A DNA stretch of 64,000 bases, taken from Thioploca ingrica (GTDB lineage: Bacteria; Pseudomonadota; Gammaproteobacteria; Beggiatoales; Beggiatoaceae). The stretch spans positions 1,550,001 to 1,614,000 of the forward strand of contig AP014633.1 in NCBI GenBank assembly GCA_000828835.1, in the 5' to 3' direction. Made by a program: the position numbers and the translations under genes. The notes under the pieces were generated by a model that did no database searches, was not told the DNA's origin, and saw only the letters and a program-made list of their open reading frames with translations. Each line of letters starts with the position of its first letter. The first letter of the stretch is position 1. This document shows positions 7,551 to 9,990 of the stretch, in pieces.

Positions 7551-7985
7551 ATGCCGCAAATTGACTTTTACATCCTACATACCAAAGCCAGGCAAGAAAG
7601 GGATCGTCTTGCCTGTCAATTGGTTGACAAAGCGTGGCACCAAGGTTACCGTACTTATATTCACACCCATTCTCTCATTCAAGCCAAACAACTGGATGAT
7701 CTGCTCTGGACCTTTAAGGATACCAGTTTTTTACCACATGATATTTATCCGGAGGTGTTATCTTCAACTGCGCCAATCCGGATTGGTTATACTGACCAGC
7801 TCTGTGAAAAAATGGAAGTATTAATTAATTTAACGGCAACAGTACCCCCGTTTTTTGCACTGGTTAAACGCATTGCTGAAATTGTCGATGATACCCCGAC
7901 TGCACGTGAAGCAGGTCGAGACCGCTATCGCTGTTATCAACAAACGGCGGATAATGTACTAAAAGTTCATGAAATTTATCGATAA
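7551..7985 (+). CDS. holC: DNA polymerase III chi subunit HolC
   Basis: A 144-residue HolC-type protein. The start MPQIDFYIL, the central HSLIQAKQLDDLLWTF segment and the position directly after pepA identify it. Chi links the clamp-loader complex (through psi) to single-stranded DNA-binding protein at the fork. The gene is complete. The IscB element's left end begins about 20 bp after the stop codon, so holC itself is intact but its 3' flank, and any following gene such as the usual valS, has been separated from it. Confidence 0.88.
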   Translation: MPQIDFYILHTKARQERDRLACQLVDKAWHQGYRTYIHTHSLIQAKQLDDLLWTFKDTSFLPHDIYPEVLSSTAPIRIGYTDQLCEKMEVLINLTATVPPFFALVKRIAEIVDDTPTAREAGRDRYRCYQQTADNVLKVHEIYR

Positions 7986-8004
7986 TAAAGGTAAAGCGCC
8001 GTCA

Positions 8005-8285
8005 ACTACCCCGCCCTGAAGGGCGGAGCTTGTCAAAGCGAGGTTGACCAGACTAAGCCGCTAGCAATAGTGGCTACGCCACACTGAGGTCGTTAAGACT
8101 TACCAGCAGATGCTTCCTGAGTCTGCTGCTCTAAAAGACTTTAATCAAGCTGGGGCAAGGTAAAACCCCGAAGGTTTTAGTCGTTGTTGGCAACAGCAAG
8201 AGCCGCTGTGTGGCCTTGTCGAAGGGAGACTGTGAGCAATCACAACGTCACTAGGTGCGTAAGCACATAAAAGTTCGAGTTAAAC
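8005..8285 (+). ncRNA. Omega-RNA of the IscB system
   Basis: The roughly 280 bp directly upstream of iscB has no ORF but is packed with stem-loops: CCGCCC/GGGCGG (8011-8026), GTGGC-TAC-GCCAC (8070-8082), AGCAGA/TCTGCT (8105-8127), AAAACC-CCGAA-GGTTTT (about 8160-8180) and GTGC-GTAA-GCAC (about 8255-8267) just before the start codon. This matches the known layout of IscB omega-RNAs: guide at the 5' end copied from the flank outside the element, scaffold running to the iscB start. The guide would be roughly the 16-20 nt before about 8004. The 5' end and pairing are inferred by eye. Confidence 0.78.
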
Positions 8286-9611
8286 ATGGCCGTTTTTGTA
8301 TTAGACAGACAGAAAAAACCATTAATGCCCTGCTCAGAAAAGCGAGCCAGACGGTTGCTAGAGCGTGGTCGTGCCGTGGTGGTGAAGCGGTATCCGTTCG
8401 CTATTCGGTTAAAAGACCGTGTGGGTGGTGAACTACAGCCTATTCGAGTCAAGCTAGACCCTGGCAGCAAGCAAACTGGCGTTGCCATCGTGCGCGAAAG
8501 CAAAAATATTGATACTGAAACTGGCGAAATAACCAGGAAAATCAACATACTTAGCTTGTTGCACCTCCATCATCGTGGCTTGGCAATCAGTGCCAATTTA
8601 ACCTCACGTCGTGCTATGCGTAAGCGCAGAAGAAACAATCTACGTTACCGTGAAGCACGATTCGATAATCGTACTAAGCCAACCGGTTGGTTAGCCCCTT
8701 CCTTGCAACATCGTGTAGATACGGCGATAAGTTGGATTAAAAAGTTGCAACGAGTTGCACCCGTTACCGCACTTTCTCAAGAATTAGTACGGTTTGATCT
8801 GCAGCAATTGGAATCACCAGAAATCAGTGGGATTGAGTATCAGCAAGGCGAACTGCAAGGCTACGAAGTACGTAAATACTTGTTGGACAAGTGGGACAGA
8901 AAGTGTGCTTATTGTGGCGTTGAGCAGGTACCACTAGAAATTGAACATATTGTGCCTAAATCTGCTGGCGGCAGTCACCAAGTGAGCAATCTCACTTTGG
9001 CATGTATCCCTTGTAACCAAAAGAAAGGCAGTCAAGCCCTGGATATTTTTTTAGCTAAACAGCCGCAATTGTTGCAAAAAATCAAGGCACAAGCCCAGCA
9101 GCCGTTAAAAGATGCCGCCGCCGTCAATAGCACTCGCTGGGCATTGGCTAACGCACTCAAAACAACCGGTAACCCGGTGGAATTAGCCAGCGGTGGTAGA
9201 ACCCAGTTTAATCGAATTCGCTTGGACATTCCAAAATCTCATGCGCTAGATGCGGCTTGTGTTGGTATAGTCGATACAGTACAGGACTGGAATAAGCCCA
9301 CTTTAGAAATTAAATGCACTGGAAGGGGCAGTTATCAACGGACTCGCCTGGATAAGTTTGGCTTTCCAAGAGGCTATTTGATGCGGAGTAAATCGGCGTT
9401 TGGTTTTCAAACGGGCGATATGGTTAAAGCGGTTGTGACAAAAGGTAAGAAAGTCGGTGAGTATGTTGGACGAGTTGCAATACGCGCCAGTGGCAGTTTC
9501 AATATCACCACTCTCATTGAAACGATTCAAGGCATTAGCCACAAGTATTGCCAAATGATTAGCCGTAACGATGGTTATGGCTATTCCCTACAGCCAAAGA
9601 TAGCCAACTAA
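8286..9611 (+). CDS. iscB: IscB RNA-guided nuclease
   Basis: A 441-residue IscB, the compact ancestor-like relative of Cas9. Order: N-terminal PLMP domain (KPLMPCSEKRARRLL, 11-25); RuvC-I with Asp58 in KLDPGSKQTG; arginine-rich bridge helix (about 108-128); RuvC-II with Glu166; HNH domain with zinc cysteines 207, 210, 240 and 243 and catalytic His221 in IEHIVPKSAGG; RuvC-III with His319 and Asp322 in SHALDAACVG; C-terminal TAM-recognition region. All expected RuvC and HNH residues are present, so it is probably active. With its omega-RNA it should cut both strands of a guide-matched target beside a short 3' motif. The ATG follows the last omega-RNA hairpin by about 18 bp. Confidence 0.95.
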   Translation: MAVFVLDRQKKPLMPCSEKRARRLLERGRAVVVKRYPFAIRLKDRVGGELQPIRVKLDPGSKQTGVAIVRESKNIDTETGEITRKINILSLLHLHHRGLAISANLTSRRAMRKRRRNNLRYREARFDNRTKPTGWLAPSLQHRVDTAISWIKKLQRVAPVTALSQELVRFDLQQLESPEISGIEYQQGELQGYEVRKYLLDKWDRKCAYCGVEQVPLEIEHIVPKSAGGSHQVSNLTLACIPCNQKKGSQALDIFLAKQPQLLQKIKAQAQQPLKDAAAVNSTRWALANALKTTGNPVELASGGRTQFNRIRLDIPKSHALDAACVGIVDTVQDWNKPTLEIKCTGRGSYQRTRLDKFGFPRGYLMRSKSAFGFQTGDMVKAVVTKGKKVGEYVGRVAIRASGSFNITTLIETIQGISHKYCQMISRNDGYGYSLQPKIAN

Positions 9612-9696
9612 TAGGAGAAGCGGGACACCGGGACTGGCTACGCCAGTCGCGCTATCCCTCCCCGCCCTGAAGGACGGGGTTTCCCGCGCAATTCGG

Positions 9697-9990
9697 ATGA
9701 AGAAAACTCAAATACTGGATTTGCCCGTGTTAAAAGATGTGGTCGTCCCAGGTAAAGAAATTCCCCTCACCGACGAACTCTCACCCGGTTTAGACGAGCG
9801 ACAACTGAAGACATTACAACAACAAATCGAAAAAATTATTCAAACTCAATTCGATGAAATCTTAAAAAAAGTCTCTCAGGATACAATTAAGAAAATTAAC
9901 GCTCATCTAGATAAAGTATTACCTAAACTTCTTGAACACATGAATCAATCGGTTAGCGATGAGAACAATGAGGATGATGATGATGAATAA
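9697..9990 (+). CDS. Small acidic-tailed protein, formerly downstream of holC
   Basis: A 97-residue charged, helical protein ending in an acidic run (SDENNEDDDDE). Small proteins of this kind can follow holC, which fits the inference that the IscB element was inserted between the two. No family is recognised. The ATG lies only about 7-17 bp from the element's right end and has no Shine-Dalgarno in front of it, whereas an AAAGG remains on the other side of the element just after holC. The insertion may therefore have separated this gene from its ribosome-binding site or removed its true start. Confidence 0.6.
   Translation: MKKTQILDLPVLKDVVVPGKEIPLTDELSPGLDERQLKTLQQQIEKIIQTQFDEILKKVSQDTIKKINAHLDKVLPKLLEHMNQSVSDENNEDDDDE

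Follow-up and report, generated by a model that had tools for sequence, protein, structure and literature searches.

The window analysed here is a stretch of 64,000 nucleotides from the genome of Thioploca ingrica (contig AP014633.1, positions 1,550,001–1,614,000, forward strand), which carries a complete IscB/omega-RNA (HEARO) element at window positions 8001–9696 (+ strand, 1696 bp). The element stands behind holC and directly abuts a host gene of 97 amino acids (9697–9990, +). Its HEARO (omega) RNA scaffold (8001–8233, +) lies directly 5' of iscB and was matched by a covariance-model search to Rfam family RF02033 with 102 bits (E value 7.5e-20), above the gathering score of 83. The original prediction had proposed an IscB/omega-RNA element behind holC with stem-loop-rich RNA upstream of iscB, and both proposals are borne out; its boundaries of 8005–9690 had to be moved to 8001–9696, on the evidence of variable left flanks, an invariant ATGA after all copies and empty sites in a genome of the same genus (see below). 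A subterminal hairpin (CCGCCC-TGAA-GGGCGG; 8011–8026, +), seen in the sequence and in the other copies, is enclosed by the HEARO stem GUCAAC/GUUGAC at the left end, and it is matched by a hairpin at 9660–9679 near the right end, as the original prediction had noted. The presumed guide is the host sequence abutting the 5' end (7981–8000, +; 20 nt is an assumed length), its presumed placement upstream of 8001 being modelled on known IscB omega-RNAs.

The iscB gene (8286–9611, +) encodes a protein of 441 amino acids with intact RuvC and HNH residues. It matches NCBIfam NF040563 (RNA-guided endonuclease IscB) with 440 bits against a cut-off of 175, contains the Pfam domains RRXRR and HNH, and finds solved IscB structures in sequence searches. 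The IscB layout is confirmed, with a PLMP domain, RuvC I–III, the arginine run of the bridge helix and the HNH domain. All catalytic residues named in the original prediction are present (Asp58, Glu166, His319 and Asp322 of RuvC and His221 of HNH), together with the CxxC pairs Cys207/Cys210 and Cys240/Cys243 that make up the zinc cysteines, and all are invariant in nine of nine aligned IscBs. The protein is 62–66% identical to relatives from the Chromatiaceae genera Allochromatium, Lamprobacter and Rhabdochromatium. The assignment as an intact IscB/omega-RNA element is supported by all of the sequence tests run. No transposase is found among the open reading frames (ORFs) of the element, in agreement with the original prediction, and the element shows IS200/IS605-type traits, in that its insertion is seamless and its hairpins are subterminal.

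The right end has a distinctive anatomy. A Shine–Dalgarno-like UAGGAGA (9612–9618, +; anti-Shine–Dalgarno pairing energy −7.3 kcal/mol) abuts the iscB stop codon and is followed by a predicted bridging stem (9620–9687, +), in which GCGGGA (9620–9625) pairs with UCCCGC (9682–9687) around two hairpins (9632–9648 and 9660–9679). A tail, GCAAUUCGG (9688–9696, +), leads from the stem to the host AUG. The ATGA that follows (9697–9700, +) is the presumed target-adjacent motif (TAM), and with its ATG the host gene begins. The host sequence also retains a Shine–Dalgarno-like AAAGG (7987–7991, +), which would be 9 nt away from the ATG if the flanks were joined as an empty site and is now separated from it by the element; the corresponding stretch is altered in the same-genus genome G001. 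The 97-residue host protein is acidic, has no Pfam or NCBIfam match and likewise starts at ATGA in G001.

The T. ingrica genome (a single contig of 4.81 Mb) contains 18 HEARO matches, 17 of them above the family cut-off, and a search with the right end gave 18 matches at the same places and nowhere else. Only two copies encode a full-length IscB, that of the window and a second that is 85% identical; the remaining 16 lack iscB or any other ORF and are 407–427 bp long. The copies begin with GTCAAC (17 copies) or GTTAAC (copy 18), and ATGA follows directly after each of the 18, whereas the left flanks are variable, with nine mismatches between the two closest 20-mers. A variable host sequence at the 5' end of the omega-RNA and a fixed motif across the insertion are thus both found, and the roles of guide and TAM are presumed for them. 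The predicted omega-RNA fold is common to the copies, and at 22 of its 67 pairs one or more of the 18 copies have both bases changed with pairing kept (a raw count). Seven Y1 matches occur elsewhere in the genome, none with a matching right end. The ORF-less copies share a hairpin-rich stretch beyond the HEARO model (in locus L002, for example, at about +233 to +330; GCGGGAAACCGC...CACTAG...), which has no more than a partial counterpart in the IscB copies and may be the remainder of the omega-RNA. Copy 7 (L007) interrupts a terminator-like inverted repeat, GTTCCGAA...TTTCGGAAC, between convergent genes.

A HEARO search of G001 gave no match, and this genome provides empty sites. A search of it with the 18 joined flanks returned matches for 16 copies; copies 2 and 9 had none among the matches listed. 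The left flank joins ATGA directly in eight of the 16 aligned copies (1, 4, 5, 8, 10, 11, 14 and 15), the alignment of copy 8 being good only up to ATGA. G001 differs by one changed base of ATGA from copy 7, by three extra bases from copy 17 and by thirty-six from copy 12; the alignment of copy 18 is gapped, and the flanks of copies 3, 6, 13 and 16 are not joined. These empty sites, with the ATGA after the copies, define both ends of the element as 8001–9696, without target duplication and with the last G belonging to the element; the original prediction had proposed a comparison with strains lacking the element to define both ends. On the sequence evidence, the element is established as intact, multi-copy and seamlessly inserted 5' of ATGA. 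At four G001 loci (L082, L087, L079 and L080, corresponding to copies 6, 8, 12 and 13), the downstream gene lies 36 to about 283 nt farther from the insertion point than in T. ingrica. In the G001 counterparts of copies 8 and 12, the left flank meets an earlier ATGA, as if the DNA between two ATGA motifs had disappeared next to the element or had been acquired by G001. An outgroup search made for this additional G001 sequence, to the right of copies 6, 8, 12 and 13, found variable spacing and was not decisive.

Features beyond the scope of the original prediction are the 17 further copies (16 without IscB), the start-codon insertion point and a right end that resembles a ribosome-binding site (RBS). 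For nine of the 18 T. ingrica copies the abutting ATGA is itself the start of an ORF of at least 97 amino acids, and the genes hit include those for VgrG and a DnaJ-domain protein as well as accD and nuoI. Both accD, which is essential in Escherichia coli, and nuoI are single-copy in this genome and remain open behind the element. Copy 6 lies 4 nt upstream of a co-directional gene, copies 8 and 12 lie 17 and 19 nt upstream, and none of the 18 is antisense to both called neighbours. A second set comprised 60 regions from five other genomes, in which 26 right ends were located with a pattern demanding that NTGA or NTGG come next; an ORF of at least 90 amino acids begins at 18 of them. Among control ATGA sites taken from these flanks, ORFs of this length follow in 71/521 (T. 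ingrica) and 47/281 cases (other genomes), or in 10/107 and 4/61 if intergenic sites are taken. The Fisher p values are 4e-4 and 4e-8, respectively, against all control sites and 1e-4 and 4e-9 against intergenic sites. In the window control, 89/702 and 20/136 ATGA sites reach 97 amino acids. Most of the start genes scanned are real: eight of nine T. ingrica proteins starting at an element end match a family, 15 of 18 from the other genomes match Pfam, and for NuoI and a viral ribonucleotide reductase the match begins at residue 1. A further 20 regions gave eight right ends by a pattern of this kind. In a second element family, from the taxonomic family of the window genome, five of seven ends are at a start codon, and four of the five proteins match Pfam. 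These sequence counts demonstrate that the element, here and in relatives, is enriched at ATGA start codons, where it severs the gene from its own leader.

Viral contigs yielded 58 IscB loci, of which 29 were examined, the other 29 being partial or weak matches. Nine were then dropped: L255 and L257 share their right flanks with L145 and L157, which were already counted, L269 and L275 are near-duplicates, L273 and L278 are cut by contig ends, and L262, L267 and L281 have no clear end. The 20 remaining right ends were set by visual inspection while the ATG could be seen, and 16 of them begin an ORF of at least 60 codons or one still open at the contig end. Six of ten scanned proteins match Pfam and seven of ten match PHROGs (partly the same proteins). 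The genes hit include that for ribonucleotide reductase (L276, matched from residue 1; with a 5 bp stem only) and, where the right-end motif described below is lacking, those for GroES (L274), a YqaJ exonuclease starting at GTG (L283) and a replication protein (L258).

Predicted folds of the right ends recur in one order: a Shine–Dalgarno sequence, 0–4 nt, a stem of 6–8 bp enclosing the terminal hairpins, a tail of 6–10 nt and the host AUG, the fold and the spacing to the AUG both being predictions. This folded-RBS motif, counted by rule (the stem finder picked a different stem in several Chromatiaceae rows), is present in 48 of 52 elements (17/18 in T. ingrica, 25/26 in other members of the same family, here family 1, 6/7 in family 2 and 0/1 for L224), in 2.6–3.2% of dinucleotide shuffles and at 11 of 514 other ATGA sites of the same loci. 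Within family 1 the motif is found at every one of the 27 start-codon copies and at 15 of the remaining 17 (8/9 in T. ingrica, 7/8 elsewhere). With stems of at least 6 bp it occurs in 10 of the 20 viral ends and at 48 of 1175 control starts. The stem arms vary within and between families with pairing kept (GCGAGA/UCUCGC, GCGGGA/UCCCGC, UGUGAGA/UCUCACG, AUCGGCAA/UUGCCGAU and GUGGCAA/UUGCCAC), and the Shine–Dalgarno-like sequence 5' of the stem differs by family (AGAGGAG, GGAGG or UAAGGAGG). One alignment (A3) was left out of the pair counts owing to misalignment of its left part between families. A third HEARO family (L213, L220, L221 and L223) has its left end near GTAACTGTCCATAAAT and its right end at CATGCACGTTCCT; it does not insert before ATGA and has no Shine–Dalgarno sequence at the right end, and the motif was lacking in four of four of its ends checked, which have another flank and were placed by eye. 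Two IscB/HEARO elements, L210 and L208, stand head to tail in genome G003 (contig 9, about 321–323 kb), the second beginning about 30 nt past the iscB stop codon of the first; a scripted search found no intact iscB in the second.

From the right-end anatomy and the pair-keeping changes in the stem, we consider it likely that this IscB/HEARO transposon, which has no transposase of its own, carries at its right end a portable folded RBS that keeps a gene hit at its start codon translatable. Folding of the terminal hairpins would bring the Shine–Dalgarno sequence at the foot of the stem to 6–10 nt from the host AUG, and insertion at a start codon would thus leave the gene translatable. The omega-RNA, with the host leader just upstream as guide, would direct IscB to cut the empty site (leader plus ATGA) and thereby hold the copy in place; the two IscBs would serve the 16 ORF-less copies in trans, and a Y1 TnpA located elsewhere would mobilize the copies. 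If a copy landed in a leader in the sense orientation, its guide, which is outside the element, would be read from the host promoter as well, and guide transcription from host promoters fits the orientation of the T. ingrica copies, none being antisense to both neighbours. The TAM would double as the start codon. The broader proposal, that IscB/HEARO elements are start-codon specialists, with a TAM (ATGA, more widely NTG) that is the start, a folded RBS and a guide from the host promoter that locks the copy, seems to us somewhat better than an even bet.

Several observations weigh against these proposals. Half of the T. ingrica copies (9/18) are away from a start codon, the counts are not independent since copies within a family are related, and L149, elsewhere, is apparently antisense to both neighbours, as judged by crude gene calls. 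Of the 27 family-1 start-codon cases, 14 have another in-frame start codon farther upstream once the flanks are joined as an empty site (73 and 85 codons upstream in L167 and L148), so that ATGA is not proven to be the sole start in those 14. The motif rule was set after the sequences had been viewed, and as defined it fails in copy 9, L195, L218, L224 and ten of the 20 viral ends; relaxed to 5 bp, the rule covers 12/20 viral ends but also 150/1175 controls. The minimum-energy fold of the window copy pairs part of the Shine–Dalgarno sequence with the tail, four folded ends have modest z-scores (−0.5 to −2.0), and the Chromatiaceae GGAGG lies, by reading of the frame, within the last codons of iscB. 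Linear Shine–Dalgarno strength (p 0.57) and AUG accessibility (p 0.63) do not differ between element ends and empty sites, and either property was accordingly rejected as the means of rescue; in the same comparison, empty sites exceed random upstream windows (p 0.002). At the left end, too, the matching hairpin is surrounded by an outer stem (the HEARO stem GUCAAC/GUUGAC); such a stem may therefore be an end feature used in transposition, which would leave only the 5' Shine–Dalgarno sequence as peculiar to the right end.

This last point is shared by the principal alternative, in which the start-codon bias is survivorship: ATGA is needed for insertion, coding insertions are purged and the spot before the AUG is tolerated, while the stem and GGAGG of the right end serve single-strand DNA recognition by a Y1 transposase and not translation. 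The ATGA after every copy, the terminal hairpins at both ends and the same right end on eight of the nine T. ingrica copies away from start codons fit that account, yet we judge it unlikely. The bias persists against intergenic ATGA sites, the sequence 5' of the stem stays Shine–Dalgarno-like even though it differs by family, the third-family ends checked lack the motif, and the single-copy genes accD and nuoI are still open behind the element. A further alternative would have the downstream gene expressed by another route, either from an outward promoter whose transcript would be short or leaderless, or by reinitiation at a UGAUG junction. An overlap of the termination–reinitiation kind (...UUUG|AUGA) is found at 12 of the 18 T. 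ingrica junctions, but the other six copies end in AAG or CGG and have no UGAUG, and by eye no ORF runs into the junction UGA; we regard this route as very improbable. As for the ORF-less copies, they could be dead relics resembling miniature inverted-repeat transposable elements, with no guide function. Their lack of iscB agrees with this, and the pair-keeping changes in the omega-RNA may partly date from before its loss; those changes were nevertheless found across a set in which 16 of 18 copies are ORF-less, and both ends are preserved in these copies, which makes the idea of relics a doubtful one.

If the proposal of start-codon insertion with a portable RBS is true, it would explain the start-codon-like TAM of the Cas9 ancestor, the ability of such elements to spread in dense genomes and in phages while the gene they hit survives, and the transcription of a guide located outside the element; insertion would be close to neutral even where the gene hit is essential or is a core gene of a phage. 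The T. ingrica copies would also offer a natural one-genome set for the study of trans-acting omega-RNAs, with two IscBs, 18 guide RNAs and empty sites in a sister species.

The 2009 description of HEARO reportedly noted that the elements insert ahead of ATGA or GTGA and that some copies have no ORF; an ATGA TAM is reported for AwaIscB of Allochromatium. The window element shares with the IscB/omega-RNA (OMEGA) systems of RF02033 the domain layout, the residues and a HEARO RNA 5' of iscB; TnpA is seldom nearby, as is reported for HEARO nucleases (PMC9755519). The TAMs reported for IsrB nickases lie on the 3' side of the target (NTG, NTGA/TTGA and NTGG; PMC9581776). These motifs are start-codon-like, and we count them in favour of the start-codon proposal; IsrB lacks an HNH domain, whereas the window IscB has one. 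No report of start-codon insertion or of a right-end RBS in such elements was found in the literature searched, many subscription papers being out of reach. IS200/IS605 elements have subterminal hairpins and insert seamlessly beside a fixed tetranucleotide. The window element shares these traits with them and their ORF-less derivatives, but it has no TnpA, and matches to its right end are found solely at the 18 HEARO copies and at none of the seven Y1 matches. RNA structure or splicing also places a Shine–Dalgarno sequence beside a start codon at the structure-bridged site of phage T4 gene 38 and in the cyclic di-GMP group I intron of Clostridioides difficile. In the arrangement proposed here, by comparison, the Shine–Dalgarno sequence and the bridge would be the end of a DNA transposon, and the AUG would be that of the host gene.
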